A stretch of 64,000 nt of DNA, from positions 7,766,675-7,830,674 of the forward strand of contig NC_087078.1 of NCBI RefSeq assembly GCF_026151205.1, read 5' to 3'. Below are positions 16,924-60,141 of this stretch, in pieces. A program made the position numbers and the translations under genes. Positions within the stretch are counted from its first letter, which is position 1. Each line of letters begins with the position of its first letter. This stretch comes from Bolinopsis microptera (lineage: Eukaryota; Ctenophora; Tentaculata; Lobata; Bolinopsidae). A model generated the notes under the pieces. That model was not told the DNA's origin, did not search any database, and was given only the letters and a program-made list of their open reading frames with translations.

Positions 16924-16972
16924 ATCTTGATAATTCACCCAGTTAATTAACTGTCGTCATCTTCCATATATC

Positions 16973-17194
16973 ATGAGTTTAACGGAATTGAAATGTCCAA
17001 CATGCGATGAAAGCCTTGCTCACAAACCGTCGCTGTCAGTCCTTCGTGATAACTTGGCACGACACATACAGAACAGAAGCTTATGTCACAGCAGTCGAGA
17101 ACACATGGATATACAACAAGACTGTCGAACCTACTATCCACTAAGATGTTCAGTACGCTTCGTACCTAAGCGTACTGAACATCTTAGTGGATAG
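16973..17194 (+). CDS. Small CxxC protein (unit A)
   Basis: 73 residues. An N-terminal zinc-finger-like pattern is visible: CPTC at residues 8-11, followed by HKP, LARHIQNR and LCH, giving candidate Cys/His ligands over about 35 residues. The C-terminal third is encoded by the first arm and loop of the 77-nt hairpin, so that part cannot be under ordinary protein constraint. It is repeated in units B and D and broken by a MULE in C. The family is unknown; it may be a degraded BED/C2H2-like finger. Confidence 0.4.
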   Translation: MSLTELKCPTCDESLAHKPSLSVLRDNLARHIQNRSLCHSSREHMDIQQDCRTYYPLRCSVRFVPKRTEHLSG

Positions 17195-17202
17195 TAGGTT
17201 CG
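17126..17202. repeat. Perfect 35-bp-stem hairpin (unit A)
   Basis: Arms 17126-17160 and 17168-17202 are exact reverse complements around the 7-nt loop CGTACCT. A partial direct repeat of the loop and right arm (CGTACCTAAGCGTACTGAA) follows at once. The hairpin recurs at 19311-19387 (unit B), 32447-32523 (unit C, perfect) and 34631-34707 (unit D, one mismatch). Confidence 0.9.
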
Positions 17203-17266
17203 TACCTAAGCGTACTGAAAATACGATAATATGGTCAATTAACTTAAGAAACAAGAAAGAGACCGT

Positions 17267-17557
17267 ATGAAATATAGAAAAGCTACCGGAGGTGGGCCAG
17301 CCAGAAAGACTCAGGCTCTCTTAGAAGCCGAAACTGCATGCTTGTCAAATCTACCACTAGAGCAAATAACTGGAATCGAAGGAGGACATGAGAGCGTCTC
17401 TTATAAGTTCCTACGCGACACTCTCCCCACTACACTAATGTCACAGATATTAGAGATATATCAATTTTCATATATCCTAGAACTTTGGAAGATGCCGGAT
17501 GTGGCATGCATCACTCATCACCTCGTTACTGCTCGTTGGCTAAGCTTAAGATTGTAA
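17267..17557 (+). CDS. SANT-like C-terminal fragment with KATGGGPAR tail (unit A)
   Basis: 96 residues. It opens MKYRKATGGGPARKTQALLE, the kind of Lys-rich plus TGGGP segment that ends Myb/SANT-like domains in harbinger-type accessory proteins. In units B and D an upstream in-frame ATG (for example 34736) adds MVNELKKQERDR, which is closer to helix 3 of the domain; unit A has TAA there. The tail LPLEQITGIEGGHE is unrecognised. A 63-bp segment (17501-17563) supplies the stop codon; unit B's copy lacks it and reads on to 118 residues. Confidence 0.45.
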   Translation: MKYRKATGGGPARKTQALLEAETACLSNLPLEQITGIEGGHESVSYKFLRDTLPTTLMSQILEIYQFSYILELWKMPDVACITHHLVTARWLSLRL

Positions 17558-19449: not shown

Positions 19450-19453
19450 GTAT
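19450..19453. other. Target-site duplication, left (GTAT)
   Basis: GTAT precedes the 5' LTR and recurs at 29535-29538 after the 3' LTR. The uninterrupted site in unit A has a single GTAT (about 17266-17269), which proves the boundary. Confidence 0.9.
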
Positions 19454-20168
19454 TGTTGGCCTCTCGGACCAACAAGACTCTTTAATTATAGGTGGTTCTT
19501 TGCTAAAGTTCCGTTCATTTGGCTGAATTTGTCGAATCCATTTCTCTTGAGAACTCAAAGTTTTAGTATACCTCCAAGTCAAATTTATTTTACGGATTGA
19601 AACAGTTAATTGAATTAACCCGTAAAACTCTTAGAGGCACAGCTACAGTGACTTTGGTCATTAGTCCAGTGAAACTTTCAAAATATAAAACACCGATAAC
19701 GGGTCTACTCAAATGATCCAGGGTGTTGGTCATTAGTCCGGAAAAACTTTCAAAATATACGGACCTTCAAATGATCTAGGGTACATAGTTCCGTGTTGAT
19801 TAGTTTCAATTGAGCATTAACGAGGCCACGCATCGGCGATCTAGAAGCCGTGTTTCGATGCGTCCTAACGGCAACAACACTGCCCGACTATATCTGAATT
19901 TTAGTTGCGATAGCAACAAGTTACAATTCGACGTAGCTCTCAAATAAGCTACAAGTTCAATTCAAATCGGAAATATAAAAAGACTCTCAATATATGAACC
20001 TTATCTCCGAAGGTATCTATTTAATGAATTAATGGAAGTATTATTATATTTGAAGGCTTATTATACTACTCTATCAATTGTGTTCAAGTAACCATAAATT
20101 GAGACTGATTAAAAGCTCTAAAATCTAAAATATAAAATATAAATAAACCACAACGGCAGTAGCCAAAA
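19454..20168 (+). repeat. 5' LTR
   Basis: Starts TGTTGGC and ends GCCAAAA, an imperfect 7-bp terminal inverted repeat (6 of 7). The 3' end is therefore not the usual CA. It contains an internal near-duplicate of GGTCATTAGTCC plus CTTTCAAAATATA and CAAATGATC (two copies about 80 bp apart), a TATA box TATAAAA at 19974-19980, and a poly(A) signal AATAAA at 20142-20147. It differs from the 3' LTR by one base seen near the end (AACCACAA against AACTACAA). Confidence 0.9.
19974..19980 (+). promoter_or_regulatory. LTR TATA box candidate
   Basis: TATAAAA, about 195 bp before the LTR end, upstream of AATAAA at 20142-20147. It would place transcription start in the last quarter of the LTR. The same site occurs at 29340-29346 in the 3' LTR. 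Confidence 0.45.
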
Positions 20169-20169
20169 C

Positions 20170-20188
20170 TGGTGCCCTCCTGGTTCGA
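20170..20188 (+). promoter_or_regulatory. Primer-binding-site candidate
   Basis: TGGTGCCCTCCTGGTTCGA begins one base after the 5' LTR. TGG complements the CCA end of a tRNA, and TGGTGCCC resembles PBSs of the TGGCGCCC type. I could not assign the tRNA, because its 3' half does not fit a normal T-arm spacing beyond about 12 nt. Confidence 0.6.
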
Positions 20189-20224
20189 ATTGACGATCTC
20201 TTCATATCAAGCTTCAATTACTGA

Positions 20225-21067
20225 AACATCAAACTGAGTTGCAACAAACTTAACTACCACTATAATCAATTCTGCGTCTCTTGCGGATCTAGTTTGAAAA
20301 AGGCATTAATTTTTTGCTTCACTTGCCAAGAGTTAAATTCCCGCTGGAATAGATTTTGTCATAGTTGTGGGCAGCCACCAACCCCAACTGGAGAACAACC
20401 AGTGGAGAAGAAGGGTAACCGACGAACGGCATCACACTACAGACGTCCCAGAAGAGATCAGGAATGGTCCCAAGATCAATTTCCCTCGTCGTCTACTAGA
20501 GGTCAAAAGGAAACAAGAAGAGAAAAAGAAGAAACTTGTAAAGAATCAGAGAAGCAAGAAGAAGACAGATCTAAAAGTCAAAAGGAAACAAGAAGAGAAA
20601 AAGAAGAAACTTGTAAAGAATCAGAGAAGCAAGAAGAAGACAGATCTAGAGCTCAAAAGGAAACAAGAAGCGAAAATGGAGAAACTTGTAAAAAATCAGA
20701 GAGGCAAGAGGAAAGGACCAATCTGGAACCTGAATATGAAAACATCACACCCACAGGTAGCGATGTGGACTGGAGCCGGGTCAGCACTCCTTCAAGTTCA
20801 CCACCTCCTCCCCCGCCCCCTGAAAATCTCGACATAGAAATGGAAGAAACACAGTTGCCAGAATCGAGAGAAGAGGACAATGAAGCAGAACCAGAAGTCT
20901 GGTCAGAGGACCCGGTACGTACCACGGCTCATAGAAGGAAAAATGAAAAAAGGAAAGAGCCCAAAAAGAAGAAAAAGAAAGACTCTTCAGAGGGAAACCC
21001 CTCTAGCAACCGGACTTATCTGTCCAGCGAGGACGAATTTCTTGAATGTGATATACTTAGTAATTAA
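20225..21067 (+). CDS. Zinc-ribbon and Lys/Glu-rich repeat protein, no ATG
   Basis: The open frame follows TGA at 20222-20224. Pairs FCVSC, FCFTC and FCHSC within about 35 residues form a double zinc ribbon (C-x2-C three times). Then come three 25-residue Lys/Glu-rich repeats (75-bp DNA units at 20502-20576, 20577-20651 and about 20652-20726), a seven-proline run after SSS, an acidic segment and a Lys-rich tail (KKKKKKD). The zinc ribbon precedes any in-frame ATG, so the protein needs a spliced leader exon or a non-AUG start; TTG at 20294 would cut the ribbon. It occupies the gag position but has no recognisable capsid features. Possibly nuclear/RNA-binding. Confidence 0.6.
   Translation, partial: NIKLSCNKLNYHYNQFCVSCGSSLKKALIFCFTCQELNSRWNRFCHSCGQPPTPTGEQPVEKKGNRRTASHYRRPRRDQEWSQDQFPSSSTRGQKETRREKEETCKESEKQEEDRSKSQKETRREKEETCKESEKQEEDRSRAQKETRSENGETCKKSERQEERTNLEPEYENITPTGSDVDWSRVSTPSSSPPPPPPPENLDIEMEETQLPESREEDNEAEPEVWSEDPVRTTAHRRKNEKRKEPKKKKKKDSSEGNPSSNRTYLSSEDEFLECDILSN
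20502..20726 (+). repeat. 75-bp coding tandem repeat, three copies
   Basis: Copies 1 and 2 are nearly identical at DNA level; copy 3 is diverged (AGCGAAAATGG for AGAGAAAAAGA). Each encodes 25 residues around QKETRREKEETCKESEKQEE. Confidence 0.9.
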
Positions 21068-21162
21068 TTTATTAATACTCAAAATCCAAAAAATCATGTA
21101 TTTAACGTGTTACCGGACAGCACCAAATTAACGGGGTTATAAATAAATATACCTATAGGTAT

Positions 21163-22803
21163 ATGTCGTTTGCAAGGACAGTGATAATACTGGTCTCCAT
21201 ATCGATAGCACAAACCACATTACTACTCTGCTCTGAAGAATATTGGGGAAAGCTATACAAGCTATCAGAAAATTTAAAATGTAAAAATAAAAATTACGTC
21301 AAATGGAATATTTCCATCTCGAAACGTAACATCGCGGAATACGAATCATCAGCCAATGCTCTGGTAATAATGTCTCGAACCTGTGAATCATATATGAATT
21401 TTGTGGGAGAAGAAACAATCACGGGTCAAAGTAAAAGAGTAATCACCGTAAACCCAGAAAGGGCTAAATATTTGATTGAAAATCGAAAATGTATTAACGA
21501 AAAAGGCGAGTATCAGACGAAATTGGTTAATAATTTTAAATGTGACTTCAAGTGGCTGGAACACAGATCTAAGACTACGACATCTTGTTATTTCTCGGAT
21601 GGAGTAGTAATAGCGAATCATGAGGATACATTTACGTCCTCTTTGTCAAATATGGAGGGTTGCGACTATAGTTCAGGGTACTGTCTAACGCATAACGGAA
21701 AACACGTCACTTGGAACGTGATTGAAAATGTAAAAAGGGCTTATTTGCCTGTGGGGCAGTTCAATGCAACACAAATCGAAAATAAGCTACTCGTACCCGA
21801 GTTGAGCATGTCATTTAATCTGCCGGAGAAAAATCCGGGTAACACTTGGATCGATAGGGATTTCCAAATAAAGGGAAGCCCAGCCCCGTATCAATTTAAT
21901 CTTGAAAATGTAAATTCGAATAATGAAAATGCGATCGAAGCAATAAGAGAGGAACTCGTCAATAAATTTAATTATCTTTTGGAATTAATTAAAAGTCCGT
22001 TGGCGCAAACGGAGTATTTGTGTAACGTGTACAACGACATATATGGGACTGAGAGAATCCTAGCTAAAATCGATCCAACTGATTACGTACAATGGAAGTT
22101 AAATAGGACGGATGTAAAGGCTAAATTGGTCGGAAAATTGTTAATGATTTATCCTTGTCTGCAAATTCAACATTATCGATTCATAAACGACACCAACAGG
22201 TGTTATAACGGGTTTAAAATAGAATATAATCTGCCGGAAAATGATGAATATATTGAGGGCTATGTAGATCCTAAGTATAACATGATAATGCCTACCGCAA
22301 TAGAGATAGATTGCCACAACTCTACGACCCAATATATGATAGTGAATAATACGATTCTCGCTCAAAGTGCTCATGGGTTACACGAAATGAGGGTAAACCT
22401 TTCAAAGGTAGATAGTATAGAGAGAGTGAAACTTACTGGAATACCCATGTCTCAAGATTTTCAAAATTGGATATATAATACGTCTGAATTGAAGCACCAT
22501 GATATTAGCGATTTAATCCTGAAGGAAATGGAAAATGAAATTAAACATTTGACGATTGATAAAACGGAAAAACGAAATGTAAAATCCAATTGGCGGGAAT
22601 TATTTGGAATATTCGGACAAAGTAAGTTTACGATTATATTTGCTATTATTAGCAACGTACAAAGCATCGCCGTATGGTATCTAATCTGGAGGTACATTAT
22701 AGTAGAATTAATTATAAGTAAATGCGTCGATCGCACCAGAGGACGGATCCCAGTTAATGAGGGCCCAATTGACCGGGATGGTCAGGATGATACGGAAGTT
22801 TAA
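21163..22803 (+). CDS. Type I membrane glycoprotein 1 (envelope-like), 546 aa
   Basis: ATG at 21163, 96 bp after the zinc-ribbon ORF. Residues 1-24 are a signal peptide (TVIILVSISIAQTTLLLC). The ectodomain of about 460 residues is Cys-containing and has many N-x-S/T sequons. A transmembrane segment at about 490-520 (TIIFAIISNVQSIAVWYLIW and onward) is followed by a cysteine and a 26-residue hydrophilic tail. No cleavage site or family motif was recognised. By position beside the fusion-type glycoprotein it could be an attachment-type partner, but that is inference. It is intact, with no stops, so recently under selection or recently inserted. Confidence 0.75.
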   Translation: MSFARTVIILVSISIAQTTLLLCSEEYWGKLYKLSENLKCKNKNYVKWNISISKRNIAEYESSANALVIMSRTCESYMNFVGEETITGQSKRVITVNPERAKYLIENRKCINEKGEYQTKLVNNFKCDFKWLEHRSKTTTSCYFSDGVVIANHEDTFTSSLSNMEGCDYSSGYCLTHNGKHVTWNVIENVKRAYLPVGQFNATQIENKLLVPELSMSFNLPEKNPGNTWIDRDFQIKGSPAPYQFNLENVNSNNENAIEAIREELVNKFNYLLELIKSPLAQTEYLCNVYNDIYGTERILAKIDPTDYVQWKLNRTDVKAKLVGKLLMIYPCLQIQHYRFINDTNRCYNGFKIEYNLPENDEYIEGYVDPKYNMIMPTAIEIDCHNSTTQYMIVNNTILAQSAHGLHEMRVNLSKVDSIERVKLTGIPMSQDFQNWIYNTSELKHHDISDLILKEMENEIKHLTIDKTEKRNVKSNWRELFGIFGQSKFTIIFAIISNVQSIAVWYLIWRYIIVELIISKCVDRTRGRIPVNEGPIDRDGQDDTEV

Positions 22804-23756
22804 TTCCTAGATTGACACTGTCCTTTATATGTACTGTAGTAAATGTGTATATTTAGATATTCTCCTTAGATATTCCATCAACATAAAGAATTAATTAGCT
22901 GGAATTTTAATTATGTTAGTAAATAAGGATAAGTAGTAACAAGGCTACTATGTATGATGAACATTATTTGAAGGAACTACTATAAATAAAGTATATTATA
23001 TATATATGAAGTATGAGTACTAGGACAGTATAACTATATTATGATTGACAATGAAACAATGATAATGAATAACAAGTGCACAATATGATATGTAATAAGA
23101 AATAAATATGCGCAATATGAAAGTATTTGTATGCAATGATATTAAAGTAAATGCACTATGTATGACAAAGATTATGTTATGAAAGATAATAAAGCGCAAT
23201 CATATAAAATGAAAGTGCACAAGATAGCTAGATTATGAATGAAGTGTATGCGCAAAGATATGATCAAGATGAGTAACAAGTAATGCACAATATGGCATGA
23301 TATTTAAATAAGTGATAAGCAAGCGCTATGAAAATATAAGATTAAAATAATGTGAGATATGAAACGCCATGAAACAAACCATATTTTAAATGCAGGCCGG
23401 CCAAATGGAATGGGAACTAGATTAAATGACGTCACCCGGAAAATTTTATTTATTTATTTATTTATTTAGTTCTTAATTTATTTATTTATTTGCGTGCACG
23501 ATTTGTGCCAAATCTGAGCTTAAATGTGCCAAAAGACTCTTTAGATCCAAGGCAAATTGAACGTGATTGTTGTCTGGAACCAAAATAATTACTTTAGCAT
23601 GACCTGTTTTGTATACTTTTCTAATAAAACACAAAAACCAAATTAGGCACGTAGTAATTTAGAATCTTGTATCTTTGTAACTAAAGTTACAGTTATAAAA
23701 ATATATTATAATATGACCGGTTAATGGTGGTTAATCTAAATACTTAAATAGCAAGG
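22804..23756. other. 953-bp non-coding gap between the glycoprotein genes
   Basis: Very A/T-rich with many ATGA/ATAAT motifs and no frame of note. At about 23446-23495 there are two runs of ATTT pentamer-like repeats (ATTTATTTATTT), resembling AU-rich RNA elements. A compact element would not be expected to keep this much untranslated sequence, so it may hold a promoter, splice site or cis-acting RNA. Confidence 0.5.
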
Positions 23757-25862
23757 ATGCGGAAGAAAGGATATTATCAACAAGTTATCTTCTTTATCAG
23801 TTGCTGCATAGCACTTTCAAAAGGAATGATTGAAGAAATCAATTACCACCAGGAAAAGACTGGTCTCATCTTACAAGGAATCGGAATCGTCGCACCGGAG
23901 ATTACCCCTGTGCTGATATCAACATTTATAAAGATAAGAAATCCAATGAAAAATGTAAATGAATGCGAAAACATATGCAACATTGACGAAAATGTAATTT
24001 GGGGACTGCTAACCCACGTAAAATGTAATCATGTGCACAACAAAATCGGAGATCGCCAAAATGTAATAAAGGAAATCGAGAATTCGGTGGATAAAGACCT
24101 CGAAAATGATTCTAGACAAATGGCGGAACGATGTTTCAGAGAATGTATCAAAATACCGAAATGTAAAGCTTTCGGTGTGGAATATAGATCTGACGTCGTG
24201 ATCTGCATTCTGAGAGAAACCATCCCTACGTATCATCAGGATTCTAAAGGTTCAAGCGAATTCGACATGCGATGCATGGTCGAAGATAAGAATAAATTCT
24301 GTGGACAATATCAGTCCAGAATCAATATTCTGTTTGAAAAATCAAATGAAAATTTTGTCAATGAAACAATGACAAAAATAGAAAAACTTACTGAATTGAC
24401 GAAAAACAGGAAACAGAAAAGATTTGTTCAAGCAGCCCTTGGATTTTTTGCCGGTTCTATTCTTACTGGAGTGTTCAGTCTCTATGAACAATCGAAAATT
24501 TCAACTCAACTTAACGAGTTCTACGACCAATTTCAGGATTTCCGTAATGAAATGACGGACTATATTGAATCAGCAACGGAATTTCATGAAGGTATGTTGA
24601 AAATGTACAAAACTTTGGAATTAAATTCCCAGGAGTCATTGGAAGAATTAAGCTGTGAAATGATGAGTATAATTCGGTATAACCTGAAAAGAAATCAGCT
24701 TCAAGACTGGAAAGAGTATATATACACTCTCTCGAAAGATTTGATAGACGGCCAATTAAAAGGTCCCGTGAGTCCCACAATATTTAATGAAACGAATATA
24801 CTGGATTTGCTGAAACATAAAAGAATGGAGGACGCAATTTATGTTGACAACGTCCCTTTATTCTATCGTCTAGGCAGAATGTGGCTAGCTGATGTAAAGA
24901 AAGATGGAAAATTTTTCAATCTTCATGTGATTATATCGATACCTCAAATAAAAAGTGATGAAATGTACATCCTATATCAAGTGAACCAAGTAGGTTTGGT
25001 CAATGGTACTCAGTGCATGCGTCTGGATATACCGAATCACGTGTATCAAAAAGATGGCGAATTCTACGAATTGGAAAACAAAAATAATTGCGAGGTCCGA
25101 AGTGGGATAAAATTATGTCTGGGGAATAAAGAAAACGAAGAATCTGCAAAGAAAGCAAGGTGTTTAAACGCCGACCCAAGAATATGTAAAACGAATTTGG
25201 AAAAATGTCAAATGCGCAATATTCAGACTAGTTCTGGTGTCATGGTCAGAGCAATACATCATTTGAAAGCATCGACGCAAGAAAGTCCTACTGAATACGT
25301 GGATATTTCAAATGGAAGTACGGTGAAATTTCTCAACTACGATAAATATTATCAAATAGTTGCCGACAACTACATCATTAGATCAATTAAAGAGCCAATG
25401 TTTACGAAAGAACTAGAGTTGACGAACCCCGAAAAATGGGACGAATATTTGATATCTGAAAATGAATTGCTGAAAAGAACGAATCTAAGTCAGCTCAGTG
25501 CTCATGTAGTTCAACAAAAAGAAATTGTTAAACATATCAAATCTGAAAGAATCGGACTAAATCTGACAAAGGATCTAACTCTTGTGAATTTTATAGGAAT
25601 TTTAACAGTAATGATTAGCATTATAGTGGGAATCTTCCTTCTATACAGCTATTGGAAAAAACGGTTCAGGACAAGGAAAGTAGAAAAGGACATAGAATTA
25701 GAAGAACAAAATAAAGACGAACTTTTAGAAAGCGGAAAAGATGAAGAATCTGGAGTAGATGAAACTAATTTCAGTGGTGAATATAGCGAAGGACTGCGAC
25801 AAAGAGCGCCTAGTACAACTAAGGTGTATTCAGTGGACGATGTGAAAAACAGAGTCTTATGA
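23757..25862 (+). CDS. Type I fusion-type glycoprotein 2 (envelope-like), 701 aa, UGA readthrough candidate
   Basis: ATG at 23757. Signal peptide at about residues 1-23 (VIFFISCCIALSKG). A Cys-rich segment at about 108-175, with spacing like a PAN/apple domain (CFRECIKIPKCKAFGVEY), is inferred. A basic furin-type site RKQKR ends at residue 222, followed by a hydrophobic Gly/Ala-rich stretch (FVQAALGFFAGSILTGVF) like a class I fusion peptide and a probable coiled coil (about 245-300). Transmembrane at about 610-635 (FIGILTVMISIIVGIFLLY), then an acidic cytosolic tail of about 65 residues. The layout resembles envelope/F proteins of errantivirus type. It ends at UGA in the context UGA-CUA-G, with the frame open for 315 further codons. 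Confidence 0.8.
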   Translation: MRKKGYYQQVIFFISCCIALSKGMIEEINYHQEKTGLILQGIGIVAPEITPVLISTFIKIRNPMKNVNECENICNIDENVIWGLLTHVKCNHVHNKIGDRQNVIKEIENSVDKDLENDSRQMAERCFRECIKIPKCKAFGVEYRSDVVICILRETIPTYHQDSKGSSEFDMRCMVEDKNKFCGQYQSRINILFEKSNENFVNETMTKIEKLTELTKNRKQKRFVQAALGFFAGSILTGVFSLYEQSKISTQLNEFYDQFQDFRNEMTDYIESATEFHEGMLKMYKTLELNSQESLEELSCEMMSIIRYNLKRNQLQDWKEYIYTLSKDLIDGQLKGPVSPTIFNETNILDLLKHKRMEDAIYVDNVPLFYRLGRMWLADVKKDGKFFNLHVIISIPQIKSDEMYILYQVNQVGLVNGTQCMRLDIPNHVYQKDGEFYELENKNNCEVRSGIKLCLGNKENEESAKKARCLNADPRICKTNLEKCQMRNIQTSSGVMVRAIHHLKASTQESPTEYVDISNGSTVKFLNYDKYYQIVADNYIIRSIKEPMFTKELELTNPEKWDEYLISENELLKRTNLSQLSAHVVQQKEIVKHIKSERIGLNLTKDLTLVNFIGILTVMISIIVGIFLLYSYWKKRFRTRKVEKDIELEEQNKDELLESGKDEESGVDETNFSGEYSEGLRQRAPSTTKVYSVDDVKNRVL

Positions 25863-25866
25863 CTAG
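25860..25866 (+). promoter_or_regulatory. Leaky stop context UGA-CUA-G
   Basis: The glycoprotein 2 stop codon is TGACTAG at DNA level. UGA followed by CUA(G) is an established readthrough-promoting context in animal viruses and some metazoan genes. The downstream frame is open without interruption into the F-box ORF, whose first in-frame ATG lies inside the F-box. Confidence 0.7.
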
Positions 25867-26810
25867 ACGAAGTAGAAGAATCAAATTTAAACTTGAACTG
25901 GAACCTAAATTGCGAAAATATAAATTGTGGAAACGTGCCAGAAAAAGAGGTAAAGAAAGCTGTAAATTTACATTACGAAAATGTAAATGATAGTGTTCAA
26001 GATGTCAGCGACTGGGAAAGTGAATCAAAGAATACAATAGACTCAAATAGTGCTTCGGATATACACGAGGAACTGGAGGAATTGAACATCGAGCATGACG
26101 CTTCTAACGATGATAATTTGGAACAACTACACAAAGAAGAGACGAAACGAGAAACAGAAATACCAATAGAAATATGGGTGATGATATTTAATTACCTCAC
26201 CATCAAGCAATTACTGAAAGTACGAGAATTAAATAAACGATTCAGTAGTTTGGTGAAGGATTACTTGCGGAACCCTACCAATGTAATAATGGAAAATTTT
26301 AAATTTTATAGTTACGAAACGTTCTATTTAACCGAAATACTTATAGAAGATCAAATGTGTTGGACGAATATGAAAACTAAAATTGGAAAGTTTGCCATGA
26401 AATACATGATCATGAAAGGGGTGTACTGCAGCGCCATCAATAAAGTGGAAAAACCATACTTGAGGTTTTTAAGAACACGGTGTCTACCATTGTATACTTT
26501 CAAGGACCGGCTAAGAAGCTTCACTCCTAAAGCGTCTGACGACGAAGTGATCATAAGATGGAAGGAATATAAGAAGAATTCTTGGGCGGATATTTCCCCA
26601 TTGGAAAAATCATGCATTAAAATGGAATGCAAGTTCCAAACTTTCTTAACGAAACTATATATGAATAAATATGGTACGTCTCTACCGATAACTACGAATC
26701 GGGAAAAGATCCAAAGAATAGGCAAAATGCTGAAAACCGAAGAGAATAAAAACTTCAATCTTCTTCAAGCTATAAAATATAGACCCCCGATTGAAGTTCT
26801 AATAGGGTAA
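25863..26810 (+). CDS. F-box protein module, in-frame readthrough extension of glycoprotein 2
   Basis: Same frame as glycoprotein 2, separated only by its UGA. 315 codons: an acidic, Asn/Glu-rich linker of about 105 residues, then an F-box (EIPIEIWVMIFNYLTIKQLL, followed by KVRELNKRFSSLV), then a C-terminal domain of about 160 residues shared with the 226-aa protein (WTNMKTKIGKFAMKYMIMKG, RTRCL, WADISPLEKSCIKMECKF). There is no ATG before the F-box, so free translation would need a non-AUG start or splicing. Read through, the F-box would lie on the cytosolic tail of a membrane protein and could recruit Skp1/Cullin ligase to membrane partners (inference). Confidence 0.7.
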   Translation, partial: LDEVEESNLNLNWNLNCENINCGNVPEKEVKKAVNLHYENVNDSVQDVSDWESESKNTIDSNSASDIHEELEELNIEHDASNDDNLEQLHKEETKRETEIPIEIWVMIFNYLTIKQLLKVRELNKRFSSLVKDYLRNPTNVIMENFKFYSYETFYLTEILIEDQMCWTNMKTKIGKFAMKYMIMKGVYCSAINKVEKPYLRFLRTRCLPLYTFKDRLRSFTPKASDDEVIIRWKEYKKNSWADISPLEKSCIKMECKFQTFLTKLYMNKYGTSLPITTNREKIQRIGKMLKTEENKNFNLLQAIKYRPPIEVLIG

Positions 26811-26980
26811 TCAAACCGTAAAAAGGAAAATGTAAAATGTAAAATGTAAATCAAACGTAATATGTCAAACGTAATATCACAACTCACCAACGGGTTCAAA
26901 ATTATAGAAACAGGCTCTTTCGTCATTTCCATTATCACTTTAATTAAAGTTTTCTAACCACATATTGATCAGCAAAGCAA

Positions 26981-27661
26981 ATGGAAAATACATCAGAAGA
27001 GATACCTTCAAAAACAGAAGAAATTCAAAGTCTATCCATTAAAGAAGTCAAATCAGTTTCCAACTGTAATCTACCTATTGAACTATGGCATATTATTTTG
27101 ACAAGGCTGAATCTACGTGATTTACTCAAAGCCAGGTTAATTTGCAAAAGGATGGGGAAAATCGTCTCACAATATTTGCGAGACACAACAAGTGGATATC
27201 CAGATCTCTTCAGCTTCTATAATTATGAAACATATTATCTCTTTGACATTCTAATGGAGAACGAGATGTATTGGACCAGGATACAAACGAATATTGGAAA
27301 ATTCGCGATAAAACTCCTAACCATGAGAGGAGCGTATAATGCAGCAGTATTAGGACAAAAGAAATGTTATGCTCGTTTTGTCAGAACTAGATGTCTAACA
27401 TTTGAAAAATACAAGTCATTATTCCCAAATGAATCGGACTGGGTTATCCTAGAACGTTGGGGAAAGTATAAACACGAGTCATGGACGAAATTGTCAAGAA
27501 TCGAAAAATCAATTATTAAGATGGAATGCAAATTCGATTATTATTTAAAGTACCAATACTGTAAAGCTTATGGAACCTGGTTGTCTATTACAATGACAGA
27601 AGAGAAAATAAAAGAAATCAGTAAAATGATGAAATACGAAGATAAGCAATACGGTAAATGA
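26981..27661 (+). CDS. Stand-alone F-box protein, 226 aa
   Basis: ATG at 26981. F-box at about residues 30-70 (NLPIELWHIILTRLNLRDLL, then KARLICKRMGKIV). The C-terminal domain at about 75-220 is homologous to that of the upstream F-box module (YNYETYYLFDILMENEMYW, NIGKFAIKLLTMRG, RTRCL, WTKLSRIEKSIIKMECKF). The two arose by duplication and diverged strongly. The middle of the shared domain (W...W..LS..EKS.IKME) faintly recalls an HMG-box helix, but this is too weak to call. F-box proteins act as SCF substrate receptors; the target is unknown. No membrane segment or signal peptide. Confidence 0.7.
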   Translation: MENTSEEIPSKTEEIQSLSIKEVKSVSNCNLPIELWHIILTRLNLRDLLKARLICKRMGKIVSQYLRDTTSGYPDLFSFYNYETYYLFDILMENEMYWTRIQTNIGKFAIKLLTMRGAYNAAVLGQKKCYARFVRTRCLTFEKYKSLFPNESDWVILERWGKYKHESWTKLSRIEKSIIKMECKFDYYLKYQYCKAYGTWLSITMTEEKIKEISKMMKYEDKQYGK

Positions 27662-28806
27662 GTTCATCGCATAACTATGCGTGAATCTGCATTTAGATAA
27701 AGAATGATGAAAAATGTAAATATTGAAAAATTTGAAACTTAAAATATAAAACTAAAAACGGGCAGGTTTAAAGATGAGGAAGTTAGATAAGTAAAGGATC
27801 GAACTCAGCCCAACTGAGATCCTAAACAATAAATATATGTATACAGTTTAAATTGTGAAAGATATTATAAGACTTCAATAAGTTAAACACTTATTAAGTT
27901 AAGTAAGAAATTAATTAAATTAATAAGTAAGAATAAGTTAAAAGGCAAATAAGTTAAATATCCGATAAATTGAAAGTAGTTTGTCAAAGGACTATTAATT
28001 TAGTACCATTTCAGAGCCTTTTAAGTTTATTGAAGTCTACTGACCAAAATGGCCCATCCAGGGGTTATGATCAAGTTATTTCATAGGTTCTTAAATAGTT
28101 CTTGAATAGAAAATTACAAGCTAGTAGATCTTCTCGTTTAGCCGGTCTATTGAGATTCTGGATCGCAACCGTATCCCCTCTCTGCACAGGAACATTTCCT
28201 ACGAAGACCGTAGACGCATCGTTATCGGGACGTAACCCGAATCTGTTTCGTATCGGGACGTAACCCCCGTTGAGAAGAAGAAGAAAGAAGAAAGAAGAGG
28301 GAATGGAAAGAATTATAATTGTAGCAATTCGTTACCGGGACGTAACCCGACTTTAAAAGCATCGCAATCAGGGCGTAACCTGACCCCCGTTGTCGTCGAA
28401 GAAAGAAGACCAAAGAAAAGGAAAGGAAAGGAAGAAAAAAAAAAAAAAGAGAAAAGAAAAGAAAAGAAAAATACTACTTGTAATAGTGGTGAGCGGCCCT
28501 AATGGCGAATTAGGTATTAATATATGTTAACAGTTTTAAGAAATGTTGATCAGCCCTAATGGCTAAATTATAGTAAATATTCTCCTATTTGAAGGAGAGG
28601 AAAACTTTGGTGTTAGATGATGATTATAATTAGGAGACCTAGGTTCTAAAATTCAGAGTCTTAAAATTTAAGGATGTCAAGGAAAATTTAATAGAAGAAA
28701 AGAAGAAGACGAAGAAGAAGAAGAAATATTTCATTAGAATAGTACGAGTAAGCCCTCGGTTGGCGAATCGGCTAATCGGTGAAATGATCAAATTAAAAAC
28801 TCTATG
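27662..28806. other. 3' untranslated region of the LTR element
   Basis: About 1.1 kb without a credible ORF. It holds the GGGACGTAACCC hairpins (28226-28382), long GA-rich purine tracts (28270-28310, 28398-28470, 28693-28725), and a near repeat of CCCTAATGGC (28497 and 28554). Cis-acting RNA functions are plausible. Confidence 0.6.
28226..28382 (+). repeat. Four GGGACGTAACCC mini-hairpins
   Basis: Stem-loops CGGG-ACGTAA-CCCG at 28226-28239 and 28336-28349, a longer-tailed version at 28254-28269, and CAGG-GCGTAA-CCTG at 28369-28382. In the last, both stem strands changed together, so pairing is kept; the loop core CGTAA is constant. Confidence 0.75.
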
Positions 28807-28819
28807 AAAAAGGGGATCG
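28807..28819 (+). promoter_or_regulatory. Polypurine tract
   Basis: AAAAAGGGGA (28807-28816) followed by TCG directly precedes the 3' LTR at 28820. It is in the right place for plus-strand priming. Confidence 0.65.
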
Positions 28820-29534
28820 TGTTGGCCTCTCGGACCAACAAGACTCTTTAATTATAGGTGGTTCTTTGCTAAAGTTCCGTTCATTTGGCTGAATTTGTCG
28901 AATCCATTTCTCTTGAGAACTCAAAGTTTTAGTATACCTCCAAGTCAAATTTATTTTACGGATTGAAACAGTTAATTGAATTAACCCGTAAAACTCTTAG
29001 AGGCACAGCTACAGTGACTTTGGTCATTAGTCCAGTGAAACTTTCAAAATATAAAACACCGATAACGGGTCTACTCAAATGATCCAGGGTGTTGGTCATT
29101 AGTCCGGAAAAACTTTCAAAATATACGGACCTTCAAATGATCTAGGGTACATAGTTCCGTGTTGATTAGTTTCAATTGAGCATTAACGAGGCCACGCATC
29201 GGCGATCTAGAAGCCGTGTTTCGATGCGTCCTAACGGCAACAACACTGCCCGACTATATCTGAATTTTAGTTGCGATAGCAACAAGTTACAATTCGACGT
29301 AGCTCTCAAATAAGCTACAAGTTCAATTCAAATCGGAAATATAAAAAGACTCTCAATATATGAACCTTATCTCCGAAGGTATCTATTTAATGAATTAATG
29401 GAAGTATTATTATATTTGAAGGCTTATTATACTACTCTATCAATTGTGTTCAAGTAACCATAAATTGAGACTGATTAAAAGCTCTAAAATCTAAAATATA
29501 AAATATAAATAAACTACAACGGCAGTAGCCAAAA
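28820..29534 (+). repeat. 3' LTR
   Basis: 715 bp, matching the 5' LTR at all but one position noted by eye. TATAAAA at 29340-29346 and AATAAA at 29508-29513. It is followed directly by the GTAT target duplication and the resumption of array unit B. Confidence 0.9.
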
Positions 29535-29998
29535 GTATGAAATATAGAAAAGCTACCGGAGGTGGGCCAGCCAGAAAGACTCAGGCTCTCTTAGAAGCCG
29601 AAACTGCATGCTTGTCAAATCTACCACTAGAGCAAATAACTGGAATCGAAGGAGGACATGAGAGCGTCTCTCATAAGTTCCTACGCGACACTCTCCCCAC
29701 TACACTAATGTCACAGATATTAGAGATATATCAATTTTCATATATCCTAGAACTTTGGAAGATGCCGGATTTTGCTCAGAAAACTTTTAATTTTCACGAA
29801 AAGACAATTAATTTGATAAGAAGAGTATCAAACACCCTTACAAGTCACGTGACAGACGTTATCCGATCACGTGACAGCTTTTATATTGGTTAGCTAGTAT
29901 CACATTATTCAATTACTAGTGTATGATTCAATTCACATTGCCTTAGTTATCCTATGTGTCCTCGCCTTTATCCAAAACCCTTATCTATACCCTTTACT
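29535..29998 (+). repeat. Array unit B, right part
   Basis: Resumes the unit at GTATGAAATATAG and runs to the segment CCCTTATCTATACCC, after which it departs from units A and C. The F-box-like ORF is absent and replaced by sequence leading to an alpha-kinase fragment. Confidence 0.85.
29537..29893 (+). CDS. SANT-like C-terminal fragment, longer form (unit B)
   Basis: 118 residues. Same KATGGGPAR start as the other units, but without the 63-bp segment that puts a stop in units A, C and D. It therefore continues through FAQKTFNFHEKTINLIRRVS to SFYIG. The extra tail is plausible protein, suggesting that this copy keeps the ancestral frame. The LTR element lies directly upstream and has separated it from the rest of its domain. 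Confidence 0.45.
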   Translation: MKYRKATGGGPARKTQALLEAETACLSNLPLEQITGIEGGHESVSHKFLRDTLPTTLMSQILEIYQFSYILELWKMPDFAQKTFNFHEKTINLIRRVSNTLTSHVTDVIRSRDSFYIG

Positions 29999-32377: not shown

Positions 32378-32446
32378 GCACGACACATACAGAACAGAAG
32401 CTTATGTCACAGCAGTCGAGAACACATGGATATACAACAAGACTGT

Positions 32447-32523
32447 CGAACCTACTATCCACTAAGATGTTCAGTACGCTTCGTACCTAAGCGTACTGAA
32501 CATCTTAGTGGATAGTAGGTTCG
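32447..32523. repeat. Perfect 35-bp-stem hairpin (unit C)
   Basis: Same as the unit A hairpin, perfect, loop CGTACCT. Confidence 0.9.
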
Positions 32524-32587
32524 TACCTAAGCGTACTGAAAATACGATAATATGGTCAATTAACTTAAGAAACAAGAAAGAGACCGT

Positions 32588-32878
32588 ATGAAATATAGAA
32601 AAGCTACCGGAGGTGGGCCAGCCAGAAAGACTCAGGCTCTCTTAGAAGCCGAAACTGCGTGCTTGTCAAATCTACCACTAGAGCAAATAACTGGAATCGA
32701 AGGAGGACATGAGAGCGTCTCTTATAAGTTCCTACGCGACACTCTCCCCACTACACTAATGTCCCAGATATTAGAGATATATCAATTTTCATATATCCTA
32801 GAACTTTGGAAGATGCCGGATGTGGCATGCATCACTCATCACCTCGTTACTGCTCGTTGGCTAAGCTTAAGATTGTAA
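32588..32878 (+). CDS. SANT-like C-terminal fragment (unit C)
   Basis: 96 residues, the same protein as the unit A copy. It contains the 63-bp segment with the early stop. Upstream, TAA replaces the GAA codon found in units B and D, so the in-frame extension is closed. Confidence 0.45.
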   Translation: MKYRKATGGGPARKTQALLEAETACLSNLPLEQITGIEGGHESVSYKFLRDTLPTTLMSQILEIYQFSYILELWKMPDVACITHHLVTARWLSLRL

Positions 32879-33146
32879 ACAGATTTTGCTCAGAAAACTT
32901 TAAATTTTCGCGAAAAGACAATTAATTTGATAAGAAGAGTATCAAACACCCTTACAAGTCACGTGACAGACGTTATCCGATCACGTGACAGCTTTTATAT
33001 TGGTTAGCAAGTATCACATTATTCAATTACTAGTGTATGATTCAATTAACATTGCCTTAGTTATCCTATGTGTCCTCGCCTTTATCCAGAACCCTTATCT
33101 ATACCCTACCGATATCCCTGTTTATTTGTTCAGTCTTCTATTCAAA

Positions 33147-33542
33147 ATGTGTATTTCTCATGACATTCTATACTACGTCCTCGATTACCTTTGCGATGAA
33201 CACCTGCTACCTCTTATGGGGGTTAGCAATCTCTGGAGGAGGATGGCATTGGACCGCATAGAGGATCTGAAGATAACGTCGAGTAACCTTCATGCAGTGC
33301 TGCTACTGATAGCAGAATGGCCAAAACTGGAGAAATTAGACGTCACCTTCACAGGTGATGAGAGGGAGCAGACACTAAACAGTTTTATCAGCCTACCCTC
33401 AAACCTAACAGAACTGCGTTGCAGAGGTGCTATACCCGAATGGTGGTTAGCTTCCGTGTGCAAACGACTTCCTAAACTGTCAGCTGTGGAGATTATTGAT
33501 AACCACACGATAACAGGAGAGTTCCTGATAGGGGCTCCCTGA
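33147..33542 (+). CDS. F-box-like/LRR-like protein (unit C)
   Basis: 131 residues, identical to the unit A copy except Trp for Cys in the first LRR-like motif (ECPKLEKL to EWPKLEKL). Preserved reading frame in both copies. Its last codons overlap the start of unit D. Confidence 0.5.
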   Translation: MCISHDILYYVLDYLCDEHLLPLMGVSNLWRRMALDRIEDLKITSSNLHAVLLLIAEWPKLEKLDVTFTGDEREQTLNSFISLPSNLTELRCRGAIPEWWLASVCKRLPKLSAVEIIDNHTITGEFLIGAP

Positions 33543-34385: not shown

Positions 34386-34477
34386 ATGAGGTGAACGGTA
34401 AAATGACAGTAGAGATTACTTATTGCCATTAAATCTTGATAATTCACCCAGTTAACTGTCGTCATCTTCTATATATC

Positions 34478-34699
34478 ATGAGTTTAACGGAATTTAAATG
34501 TCCAACATGCGATGAAAGCCTTGCTCACAAACCGTCGCTGTCAGTCCTTCGTGATAACTTGGCACGACACATACAGAACAGAAGCTTATGTCACAGCAGT
34601 CGAGAACACATGGATATACAACAAGACTGTCGAACCTACTTTCCACTAAGATGTTCAGTACGCTTCGTACCTAAGCGTACTGAACATCTTAGTGGATAG
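34478..34699 (+). CDS. Small CxxC protein (unit D)
   Basis: 73 residues, with Phe for Leu at residue 5 and one Tyr-to-Phe change in the hairpin-encoded part. CPTC near the N-terminus. Function unknown. Confidence 0.4.
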   Translation: MSLTEFKCPTCDESLAHKPSLSVLRDNLARHIQNRSLCHSSREHMDIQQDCRTYFPLRCSVRFVPKRTEHLSG

Positions 34700-34707
34700 T
34701 AGGTTCG
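34631..34707. repeat. 35-bp-stem hairpin with one mismatch (unit D)
   Basis: Left arm reads CTACTTTCC where the right arm predicts CTACTATCC; otherwise perfect. Confidence 0.85.
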
Positions 34708-34735
34708 TACCTAAGCGTACTGAAAATACGATAAT

Positions 34736-35062
34736 ATGGTCAATGAACTTAAGAAACAAGAAAGAGACCGTATGAAATATAGAAAAGCTACCGGAGGTGG
34801 GCCAGCCAGAAAGACTCAGGCTCTCTTAGAAGCCGAAACTGAGTGCTTGTCAAATCTACCACTAGAGCAAATAACTGGAATCGAAGGAGGACATGAGAGC
34901 GTCTCTTATAAGTTCCTACGCGACACTCTCCCCACTACACTAATGTCCCAGATATTAGAGATATATCAATTTTCATATATCCTAGAACTTTGGAAGATGC
35001 CGGATGTGGCATGCATCACTCATCACCTCGTTACTGCTCGTTGGCTAAGCTTAAGATTGTAA
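34736..35062 (+). CDS. SANT-like C-terminal fragment (unit D)
   Basis: 108 residues from the ATG at 34736, 12 residues longer than in A and C: MVNELKKQERDRMKYRKAT, the helix-3 and Lys-rich end of a SANT-like domain, followed by GGGPARK. Codons upstream of the ATG would read KYDN, which also fits the domain, but a TGA and the hairpin precede them. The gene therefore appears to have been broken by the hairpin insertion. Confidence 0.45.
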   Translation: MVNELKKQERDRMKYRKATGGGPARKTQALLEAETECLSNLPLEQITGIEGGHESVSYKFLRDTLPTTLMSQILEIYQFSYILELWKMPDVACITHHLVTARWLSLRL

Positions 35063-55154: not shown

Positions 55155-57767
55155 TCAAAAGGTAGGAGTAATAAGCTGTTCGCGATCCTCCGCGGTTGAC
55201 CGCCTCTTGATAACCCAAATAATCGCAACAACAATCACCACCGCCACAGCCACCCCCAAAACAATCCACAAGGGTAATAGTCCACCCTTCTTCTGACACG
55301 CCGCAACACCAGACGCTGCGTCCTCTTTACAGGAAAAGTGGCCCGTACAGGAAACCCCTTCTCCAGTAGTGCTGTTGTCGTTGATACAGAGAGGGAACCC
55401 ATCGGCGTTGACAGTACAGTAGCCGGTGTCTTGAGAGCATCCTACGAAGGTCTCGGCGTTGTCAAATACTCCCTGGCACTTGGAATTGTAGCAATCGTAT
55501 GGCTTAGGGTACACACAAGAAGCAGTGAAGGGATTGCCTACAGTTGGGGAGCAATAGAAGCTGAGAGTTTCATTACATTGTACTCCTGATCCTCTTGAAC
55601 CCTCAACACACAAAGGAGATCCATCATCAGCAACACTGCATCGGTGTTCAGCTCCATCGCAGTTCACCCAAGAGGCATTGTTGAGCCCAGTGCCCTGACA
55701 AAACTGACTGTAACAGCTCTGAGGTGGAGTAAAGACACATTGAGCTCCACCGACCTCACTTGTACCACAATAGAAGTCAAGGTCAGAGGTGTGTGCACAG
55801 TCGATCCCTGCTCCTCGAGTGGTATCAATACACACTGGTGCTCCAGTGGCGTTGAAGCCACATCTGTTGGAACTTTGATCACAGTCCATGACAGTTGTGT
55901 TAAAGGCGTCCTTTCCAGTGCAGGTGCTCTCGTAGCAGTCGTGTTTAGGAGGAACAACACACACTCCAGCTCCTTTGTCATCAACGTTGCAGTAAAATTC
56001 GTCATCTTTAGAGCAGTCGACCCCTTCTCCTCGAGTAGTATCGATACACACTGGTGCTCCAGTGGCGTTGAAGCCACATCTGTTGGAACTTTGATCACAA
56101 ACAATTGATGTTTCGTTGAAGGCTTCGATTCCTGTGCAGGTAGTGTCATAGCAGTCGTGTTTGGGAGGATAAACGCACACAGCAGCTCCATTTGTAAGGT
56201 CATTCTGACAGTAAAATTCATCGTTATCCGCCGTGACAGTGCAGTTGACTCCAGCTCCACGAGACATAGGAGAACAAATAGGGGCACCAGTTTCATCGAC
56301 CTGGCACAGATTCGCAGACTGATCACAGTCAATAAAGTTCTCGCTTTGATCCCCAGTTCCTCCACATTTTGTATTGTAGCAATTACTTAGAGGAGTGACC
56401 ACGCAAACTGCAGCTCCACTGTCTCCGTTATTGCAATAAAAGTCCTCGTGCTCCGTGCCTGAACAATCCACCCCGGCCCCACGAGTAGTGTTTACACAGG
56501 ACGGCTCCCCTTCCGTACTGAGGACACAGCGGTGATCCTTTTGGTCGCAATCTATGGTGGTTTCGTTGAAGGTACCAGTTCCTACACATTGTAGATCGTA
56601 GCAACTATGGACTGGGGGAACAACACATACTCCAGCTCCTTTGTCATCAACGTTGCAGTAAAATTCGTCATCTTTAGAGCAGTCGACCCCTTCTCCTCGA
56701 GTAGTATCGATACACACTGGTGCTCCAGTGGCGTTGAAGCCACATCTGTTGGAACTTTGATCACAAGCAATTGCTGTTTCGTTGAAGGCTTCGATTCCTG
56801 TGCAGGAAGTGTCATAGCAGTCGTGTTTGGGAGGATAAACGCACACAGCAGCTCCATTTGTAAGGTCATTCTGACAGTAAAATTCATCATTTTCCTCAGT
56901 GACAGTGCAGTTGACTCCAGCTCCACGAGACAGAGGAGAACAAATAGGGGCACCAGTTTCATCGACCTGGCACAGATTCGCAGACTGATCACAGTCAATA
57001 AAGTTCTCGCTTTGATCCCCAGTTCCTCCACATTTTGTATTGTAGCAATTACTTAGAGGAGTGACCACGCAAACTGCAGCTCCACTGTCTCCGTTATTGC
57101 AATAAAAGTCCTCGTGCTCCGTGCCTGAACAATCCACCCCGGCCCCACGAGTAGTATCAATGCATAGCGGTGCTCCTGTAGCATTAAATCCACATCTGTT
57201 GGTACTTTGGTCACAATCGATGACAGTTTCGTTGAAGGCTTCGATTCCTGTGCAGGTAGTGTCATAGCAGTCGTGTTTGGGAGGATAAACGCACACAGCA
57301 GCTCCATTTGTAAGGTCATTCTGACAGTAAAATTCATCGTTATCCGCGGTGACAGTGCAGTTGACTCCAATGCCAATATTTCCAGGATTGCAGACTGGTA
57401 ATCCGTCGTCATCATTTGAACAGGTGTTGGTACTCTGATCACAATCGATAAATGTAGTGCTGGCTCCATCAACCCCCTGACACTTGTTATTATAGCAACT
57501 AGAGGTAGTGTACACACAGAGAGCTTCTCCGGCCTCACTAGCTGAGCAGTAGAAGTTCGGCACCACACACTCCACCCCTGCTCCTCCACCAGGAGACGTG
57601 TCACACTTGGGTTTTCCATCATCTTGGATCGTGCAATTCCTTGTGGATTGGTCACAAGGAATTGTCATTTCTGTTCCTACACAAAGGGTGTTGAAACAGT
57701 CATGAGCAGCGAAGGAGAACGGCAGAAGGGCGAGGAACAGGATCATATGCATGCTACAGGCAGACAT
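55155..57767 (-). CDS. Cys-rich repeat type I membrane protein 1, 870 aa, 11 repeats
   Basis: One uninterrupted exon. Signal peptide about residues 1-20 (MILFLALLPFSFAA). Eleven tandem repeats of about 70-76 residues with eight cysteines, in the pattern C-Y-(D/N)-x2-C-x-G ... (D)CDQ-x5-C ... G-x-P-x-C ... G-x-G-V-x-C ... FYC ... A-x-C-V, rich in N-glycosylation sequons. Transmembrane segment at about 825-848 (LWIVLGVAVAVVIVVAIIWV), then KRRSTAEDREQLITPTF. Repeats 4-5 and 7-8 are near-identical blocks, a higher-order duplication. No known domain recognised. Paralogue of the gene at 60137. A secreted or surface-coat role is possible. Confidence 0.85.
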   Translation of the reverse strand: MSACSMHMILFLALLPFSFAAHDCFNTLCVGTEMTIPCDQSTRNCTIQDDGKPKCDTSPGGGAGVECVVPNFYCSASEAGEALCVYTTSSCYNNKCQGVDGASTTFIDCDQSTNTCSNDDDGLPVCNPGNIGIGVNCTVTADNDEFYCQNDLTNGAAVCVYPPKHDCYDTTCTGIEAFNETVIDCDQSTNRCGFNATGAPLCIDTTRGAGVDCSGTEHEDFYCNNGDSGAAVCVVTPLSNCYNTKCGGTGDQSENFIDCDQSANLCQVDETGAPICSPLSRGAGVNCTVTEENDEFYCQNDLTNGAAVCVYPPKHDCYDTSCTGIEAFNETAIACDQSSNRCGFNATGAPVCIDTTRGEGVDCSKDDEFYCNVDDKGAGVCVVPPVHSCYDLQCVGTGTFNETTIDCDQKDHRCVLSTEGEPSCVNTTRGAGVDCSGTEHEDFYCNNGDSGAAVCVVTPLSNCYNTKCGGTGDQSENFIDCDQSANLCQVDETGAPICSPMSRGAGVNCTVTADNDEFYCQNDLTNGAAVCVYPPKHDCYDTTCTGIEAFNETSIVCDQSSNRCGFNATGAPVCIDTTRGEGVDCSKDDEFYCNVDDKGAGVCVVPPKHDCYESTCTGKDAFNTTVMDCDQSSNRCGFNATGAPVCIDTTRGAGIDCAHTSDLDFYCGTSEVGGAQCVFTPPQSCYSQFCQGTGLNNASWVNCDGAEHRCSVADDGSPLCVEGSRGSGVQCNETLSFYCSPTVGNPFTASCVYPKPYDCYNSKCQGVFDNAETFVGCSQDTGYCTVNADGFPLCINDNSTTGEGVSCTGHFSCKEDAASGVAACQKKGGLLPLWIVLGVAVAVVIVVAIIWVIKRRSTAEDREQLITPTF

Positions 57768-60082: not shown

Positions 60083-60141
60083 GGAGGACAAGGAGGACAG
60101 CTAGGAGGACAGCTAGGAGGACAGCTAGGAGGACAGCTAGG
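60083..60141. repeat. 12-bp minisatellite (CTAGGAGGACAG)n beside a stop codon
   Basis: About five copies of CTAGGAGGACAG-type units. On the minus strand it starts at the stop codon of Cys-rich gene 2 (last residues ASSS) and occupies the first 50-60 nt of its 3' UTR. Confidence 0.85.

Follow-up and report, generated by a model that had tools for sequence, protein, structure and literature searches.

A probable internally deleted Ty3/gypsy-type element with two candidate envelope genes and two F-box genes in the ctenophore Bolinopsis microptera

Known envelope-carrying elements and the Bolinopsis insertion

The capture of an envelope gene is a route by which a retrotransposon can become infectious, and several lineages of long terminal repeat (LTR) elements carry such genes. 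Errantiviruses are described as carrying one envelope gene, which in Drosophila is of the F type (PMC12992720), and gypsy elements of mosquitoes with type III fusion glycoproteins are also mentioned (PMC13172572). The envelope of the TelKA LTR retrotransposons of bdelloid rotifers is most similar to the class I F protein of paramyxoviruses (PMC5408684), and phleboviruses, herpesviruses and chuviruses have been named as the origins of the envelope-like genes in the BEL/Pao elements Tas, Cer-7 and Anakin (PMC7642597). Here we analyze an LTR insertion in a 64,000-nucleotide stretch of the Bolinopsis microptera genome (contig NC_087078.1, positions 7,766,675 to 7,830,674, forward strand; hereafter the window). 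This insertion holds two unlike glycoprotein genes (open reading frames ORF1 and ORF2) and two F-box genes (fb1 and fb2). We judge it, with a probability of roughly 0.87, to be a recent copy, with an internal deletion, of an envelope-carrying Ty3/gypsy-type (endogenous-retrovirus-like) element.

Like errantiviruses and other envelope-carrying Ty3/gypsy elements (Metaviridae), this element is associated with a Ty3-like gag-pol, short target-site duplications (TSDs) and an envelope gene behind pol. However, in place of the single envelope gene described for errantiviruses (PMC12992720), it has two unlike glycoproteins in tandem together with F-box genes. TelKA shares with a relative of ORF2 an envelope similarity to class I F, but has one canonical envelope gene, and the TelKA report does not mention an F-box (PMC5408684). 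Similarly, the envelope-like genes of Tas, Cer-7 and Anakin recall ORF1, a candidate of the glycoprotein B (gB)/Monjiviricetes type, whereas those elements have a BEL/Pao pol and one glycoprotein, again with no F-box mentioned in that report (PMC7642597).

In the open-licence PubMed Central literature, the combination of errantivirus and F-box was not found, nor was the phrase "two envelope genes" found among the matches listed. It is unusual for one element to combine gag-pol with a gene for a ubiquitin-ligase adaptor and with two unlike proteins that are candidates for a role in cell entry. HIV Vpu, likewise a membrane-bound viral protein tied to a Skp1-Cullin-F-box (SCF) ligase, recruits the host F-box protein beta-TrCP, whereas the present element would encode its own. 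Group I nucleopolyhedroviruses have GP64 together with F. Baculoviruses resemble the element in encoding two types of fusion protein (PMC2288602), but they are DNA viruses with unrelated replication. Conservation of two unlike fusogens side by side would demonstrate that elements of this kind are able to use a two-glycoprotein mode of entry, and it would then be possible to ask why both are kept. F-box genes carried by an element suggest that the accessory functions of retroelements include targeted protein degradation, with a role comparable to that of Vif, Vpx or Vpu. Finally, ten different deletions in one young family, as described below, provide a natural series on the loss of the 5′ half in long retroelement genomes.

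Deleted copies and their gag-pol-bearing relatives

The LTRs of the insertion, each 715 bp in length, differ at 1 of 715 positions and have the termini TG...AA rather than TG...CA. As the original prediction had claimed from the letters of the window, they are bordered by a GTAT duplication and enclose candidates for a primer-binding site (PBS) and a polypurine tract (PPT). The three empty sites that it reported are also confirmed. When the flanks of the insertion are joined, they align without interruption at 16969-17500, 32378-32821 and 34474-35005 with 98.7-99.4% identity, and the empty sites are therefore real. They are units of a host repeat, near-identical to each other and of the same kind as the insertion target, in a region that is locally duplicated. 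A 17-nt PBS pattern has 13 matches in the genome searched (264.65 Mb, with the window on contig 7), all 13 of which stand beside LTRs of this group, and none of which lies at a separate tRNA-gene-like site. One contig of this genome contains TTAGG arrays (33 matches), a repeat that might suggest an arthropod.

Also as predicted, gag-pol is missing from the window copy, which carries a pair of glycoprotein genes and a pair of F-box genes. Coding sequence for gag or pol was not found in it, and only the 67-nt leader behind the LTR is common to this copy and those that bear gag-pol. Five intact reading frames had been proposed, and four of these (ORF1, ORF2, fb1 and fb2) are well supported. The first, an open frame at 20225-21067, is truncated: it crosses the deletion junction, which forms its 5′ end, and no ATG-started ORF of at least 90 amino acids lies inside it. 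This leading frame encodes a poly-proline region and a lysine-rich tail, and it includes three tandem 75-bp units (20496-20720) with 83-97% identity to the first unit.

A longer relative bearing gag and pol, to be sought by means of the 715-bp LTR, had been anticipated and is indeed present on contig C184. Specifically, an LTR with 99.7% identity is followed there by a gag frame that is open over 508 codons and a pol frame that is still open after 1399 codons, where the contig ends. The domains of this pol are, in order, PF13975 (protease, below cut-off), PF00078 (reverse transcriptase, RT), PF17917/PF17919 (RNase H), PF17921 (integrase zinc-binding) and PF00665 (integrase core), and a TTTAAAC at the gag-pol overlap has the codon phase that fits a -1 frameshift site. 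Its best match in the Protein Data Bank (PDB) is Ty3 (3.6e-67), which is the nearest among solved structures. The pol order, the match to Ty3, and the LTR pair with its 4-bp TSD together place the family in Ty3/gypsy (Metaviridae). Because C184 ends within pol, linkage of pol and ORF1 in cis is not seen in the window family, and for this family it rests on a diverged relative.

This relative was reached by a search with pol, which matches C3:6114227-6118132 at 45% identity. The surrounding element (C3:6112056-6127889) has 723-bp LTRs with 1 difference and the TSD GGTT on both sides, and holds gag, pol, ORF1 (38% identical), ORF2 (35%) and an F-box gene (~28%) in that order, such that an envelope gene is seen to follow pol within a single provirus. 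The gag frame of this element is interrupted, a hAT-type fragment (PF05699) lies between pol and ORF1, and its F-box (15.6 bits, below cut-off) has its own ATG in a different frame. In a second member of the same family, at C5:8.26 Mb, gag and a large part of pol are retained, and envelope or F-box matches were not found between its LTRs. At C5:19.2 Mb, an ORF1 relative is followed by an ORF2 that is 99.8% identical to that of the C3 element, and upstream lies a degenerate pol match containing 27 stops. A third family, at C11:8.04 Mb, also has ORF1 (30%) and then ORF2 (28.7% over 600 amino acids), and the tandem ORF1-ORF2 pair is therefore present in three families that are ~29-38% identical. 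Outside the window family, 18 more distant ORF1 rows were found, or 15 after excluding three second pieces of loci already kept. For at least 7 of these 15, one of the listed pol rows lies on the same strand, no more than 6 kb upstream. That count took in 31 of 52 pol rows and the pol search scored 33 of 532 candidates, so the remaining 8 rows are uninformative.

A search of the genome with the LTR yields 30 rows, which represent ten paired-LTR copies (23 rows) and seven single or partial LTRs. The insertion is thus a genuine, multi-copy retroelement, as had been proposed. Perfect 4-bp TSDs flank eight of the ten copies, with three of four positions matching for E12 and none for E2, and the aligned LTR pairs within copies differ by 0-4 substitutions, which indicates recent insertion. 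When the genome is searched with fb2 at an E value of 0.001, the same ten copies are recovered together with one distant relative at C3, without further matches. The window copy and the nine others are ~97-100% alike over ORF2, fb1, fb2 and the tail, except for one tail piece at 93.9%.

RT and integrase are absent from all ten copies, and the ten have ten different deletion junctions. The copies depart from C184 at ~67, 100, 102, 115, 117, 375, 1165, 2147, 2625 and 2663 nt after the LTR, and they resume at ten different window positions, from 20236 to ~22575. Homology at the six joints measured is 0-5 nt, and filler is present at the joints of E12 (22 nt) and E8 (~12 nt). A consistent GT-AG was not seen at the deletion boundaries, which were checked by eye only. 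Longer gag pieces are kept in four of the nine other copies (E1, E2, E8 and E11) and a short piece in E12, whereas the partial pol of E1, E2 and E11 stops short of the RT domain. All ten main deletions affect the 5′ half, reaching into ORF1 in five copies (E5, E8, E10, E11 and E12), and spare everything from ORF2 on, where only smaller indels are seen. Two of the ten, the window copy and E2, have an ORF1 that is complete and open. In addition, the end of ORF1 and some of the spacer are missing from E6, E8 lacks 24 nt of ORF2, E10 lacks ~72 nt of the fb2 region and also has a stop in fb2, and E1 and E11 have indels in fb1. A second deletion in E10 ends within one base of the E11 joint, and this near-coincidence marks a possible deletion hotspot. 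Two further fragments, C7:6142951 and C11:2581067, have gag remnants behind LTRs of 90-91% identity.

Other sequences have entered some of these copies. An 835-bp insert, 98% identical between its two occurrences, lies in ORF1 of E7 (L022:2623-3457) and in gag of E8 (L024:1417-2253), and is probably a small unrelated transposon. Three copies have an extra insertion within an LTR (L018:753-1814, L025:4118-5493, and the 5′ LTR of E2 at L012/L013). A solo LTR at C8:10751659-10752373 has a perfect TSD, TAAT, with no element parts alongside.

Ten junctions in ten copies, together with a relative that has all genes in one unit, argue for one-off deletions of a complete element and not for a non-autonomous partner that multiplies. 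The order of the complete element, which is displayed by the diverged relative and which we infer for the window family, would be LTR, gag, pol, middle frame, ORF1, ORF2, one or two F-box genes, and LTR, with a pol that would supply protease, RT, RNase H and integrase. As is general for retroviruses, reverse transcription copies the 3′ half first. We hypothesize that RT, while copying a long RNA from its 3′ end, falls off in the 5′ half and resumes near the leader, such that the intervening sequence is deleted. Interruption of minus-strand synthesis in this manner would account for the presence of ORF2 onward after all ten main deletions. Drop-off followed by resumption would also account for the largely intact 3′ part, the kept leader, and the 0-5 nt of homology at the joints.

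Two observations weigh against this interpretation. No copy of the window family was found that has gag, pol and the envelope genes in one unit, and simple random deletion would not predict that ORF2 onward is retained in ten of ten copies. If deletion is not random in this respect, could selection have preserved these genes? Selection at the level of the host or of the element might favor the retention of deleted copies in which envelope and F-box proteins are expressed, for example through superinfection immunity, while pol-bearing copies are lost. The retention of ORF2 onward, bar smaller indels, agrees with this explanation, as does a deficit of nonsynonymous differences among copies in ORF2 (6 nonsynonymous, N, and 8 synonymous, S; p 0.002, uncorrected). 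However, the ORF2 bias can date from time spent within the complete parent, the copies are scattered and young (1/715 in the window LTRs), and several are damaged in the very genes concerned, by the fb1 indels of E1 and E11, the fb2 deletion and stop of E10, and the 24-nt ORF2 deletion of E8. We therefore consider selection on the deleted copies to be improbable.

According to the original prediction, the form without gag-pol is one half of a split retroelement, in which a stable non-autonomous partner parasitizes a gag-pol helper and provides it with envelope and F-box functions. Some of the data have the expected appearance: the ten copies without RT and integrase retain ORF2 and the F-box region, some with indels, all ten main deletions are in the 5′ half, and C184 carries gag-pol with the same LTR. 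Yet the copies of an amplified non-autonomous element should be insertions from one deleted form, whereas ten different main junctions are found here, and thus there is no sign of a deleted form that has spread as a parasite. Deletions also enter ORF1 in five copies and leave it complete and open in two of ten, the diverged relative holds everything within one LTR pair, and the C5 copy of the relative's family has gag and much of pol with no envelope or F-box match found. A split element is very unlikely on these grounds. Hardly credible is an assembly artefact, with complete copies collapsed or clipped and the deletions being misassemblies, since although C184 and C129 are short contigs that end or start within an element, perfect 4-bp TSDs border most of the copies and the joints are precise and differ among copies, that of E12 even having its 22-nt filler.

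Candidate fusogens and F-box genes

The complete element, of which we take the window insertion to be a deleted copy, would make enveloped particles bearing both glycoproteins. ORF1 has N-terminal and C-terminal hydrophobic stretches and eight N-glycosylation sequons. It matches PF00606 (glycoprotein B) at 6.2e-5, with 23 bits against a cut-off of 43, and an ORF1 relative matches PF24664 (Monjiviricetes fusion) with 26 bits against a cut-off of 27. When a two-sequence ORF1 profile is compared with the PDB, gB from the herpesvirus MHV68 is matched at 0.003. The links to class III fusogens that these sequence matches suggest for ORF1 are weak but consistent.

The basic site, hydrophobic stretch and C-terminal anchor of ORF2 are arranged as in F, and 16 of its cysteines are invariant across the three families. 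The 35% identical relative of ORF2 matches PF00523 (Fusion_gly, paramyxovirus F0) with 38.8 bits, above the cut-off of 29.8, and also matches F chains in the PDB at 0.0024. Similarly, a two-sequence ORF2 profile matches metapneumovirus (HMPV) F at 0.037. Scans of viral contigs with the ORF1 and ORF2 alignments revealed no relatives, and NCBIfam yielded nothing useful for ORF1, ORF2, fb1 or fb2.

The two F-box genes are paralogues with 42-45% identity. For PF00646, which has a cut-off of 20.5 bits, fb2 scores 30.8 bits, and fb1 scores 25.1 bits (1.6e-5) when it is read from after the ORF2 stop but 15.9 bits when read from its first ATG. This first in-frame ATG (26181) is inside the F-box, which starts before it, and so fb1 is not the ordinary, free-standing intact ORF that it had been taken for. 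The terminus of ORF2, TTA-TGA-CTA-G, is identical in the window copy and the nine others, and the frame beyond it runs through 315 open codons, free of indels in eight of the ten (the window copy and seven of nine others). The chance of 106 open codons is ~1.5e-4 at the base composition of that stretch. On its plus strand, the window has 1289 TGA triplets, 10 TGACTA and 3 TGACTAG. In human cells, UGA CUA (G) is described as a high-readthrough consensus (PMC4359377). The occurrence of UGA-CUA-G ahead of an open F-box frame suggests a readthrough product that would be a membrane-anchored ubiquitin-ligase adaptor.

We propose that the F-box proteins, as predicted SCF ubiquitin-ligase adaptors, would act against a host factor. 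A weaker proposal is that leakage at UGA-CUA-G extends a minor fraction of the F-like envelope protein into fb1, such that an SCF adaptor would be placed on the cytosolic side of the membrane. The fullest version of this idea, in which the lineage uses two fusogens of different structural classes for cell entry and one of the two gains, through a leaky stop, the element's own F-box adaptor on its cytosolic tail, is speculative and rather doubtful. If true, host receptors or restriction factors would be degraded by a membrane-anchored protein that is wholly encoded by the element.

Further points are to be set beside those that already weigh against our interpretation. All matches of the ORF1 family are below Pfam cut-offs. 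The ORF2 proteins of the window and of the third family have no F match themselves, the match above cut-off being in the relative only, and a three-sequence ORF2 profile has no PDB match at 0.1. AlphaFold models made without an alignment have a mean pLDDT of 30 for ORF1 and 34 for ORF2, and both are unusable. Among the copies, a deficit of nonsynonymous differences is present in ORF2 only, with no clear constraint in ORF1 (11N/6S, p 0.13), the F-box part of fb1 (7N/5S, p 0.067) or fb2 (6N/2S, p 0.66). There is no purifying signal in the fb1 linker, which has six nonsynonymous changes and no synonymous ones, and no structured RNA beyond chance follows UGA-CUA-G (z 0.72). Moreover, the C3 relative is without the readthrough context, having TAG with the next stop after one codon.

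Whether readthrough is used at all is evenly balanced against the alternative that fb1 is made via a spliced mRNA or a non-AUG start. Expression of fb1 apart from ORF2 is favored by the lack of a stimulatory RNA fold and of a purifying signal in the linker, and also by the C3 relative, whose F-box gene starts at an ATG of its own in a different frame, so that F-box genes here can be expressed separately. However, the linker has no pyrimidine-rich, acceptor-like AG (best 0.47, versus 0.53-0.80 in four other stretches), the position of the first in-frame ATG within the F-box disfavors a separate start, and separate expression sits poorly with the long, indel-free frame behind the stop, from which E1 and E11 are the exceptions.

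Feature coordinates and neighboring frames

Table 1. Features of the insertion, in window coordinates.
Feature	Position	Strand	Remarks
Target-site duplication, left	19450..19453	.	GTAT
5′ LTR	19454..20168	+	715 bp
Leader	20169..20235	+	67 nt; common to all copies compared, including gag-bearing
PBS candidate	20170..20186	+	PBS-like TGGTGCCC
Internal-deletion junction	20235..20236	.	gag and pol removed
5′-truncated reading frame upstream of ORF1	20236..21067	+	double zinc ribbon, PF12773, 2.3e-7
ORF1, glycoprotein	21163..22803	+	546 amino acids; class III (gB/Monjiviricetes-like) fusogen candidate
ORF2, glycoprotein	23757..25862	+	701 amino acids; class I F-like fusogen candidate
ORF2 basic cleavage-like site	24408..24422	+	RKQKR; RVRR and RRKR in two relatives
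ORF2 hydrophobic fusion-peptide-like stretch	24426..24482	+	
ORF2 C-terminal membrane anchor candidate	25590..25646	+	
TGA CTA G at ORF2 stop	25860..25866	+	candidate readthrough context
fb1	25863..26810	+	315 open codons in ORF2 frame; acidic linker, F-box (~26157-26261), C-terminal domain
fb2, F-box protein	26981..27661	+	own ATG; PF00646, 2.5e-7
PPT candidate	28806..28816	+	GAAAAAGGGGA tract
3′ LTR	28820..29534	+	
Target-site duplication, right	29535..29538	.	GTAT

Elsewhere in the window, two long open frames on the minus strand (55155-57770 and 60137-61879) encode cysteine-rich repeat proteins with a C-terminal hydrophobic stretch. These proteins are apparent paralogues, and neither has a Pfam match above cut-off. 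Adjoining one of the empty-site repeats is a 191-amino-acid open frame (32967-33542, plus strand) that weakly matches an F-box-like profile (PF12937, 3.5e-4, below cut-off) and is possibly a host F-box gene.

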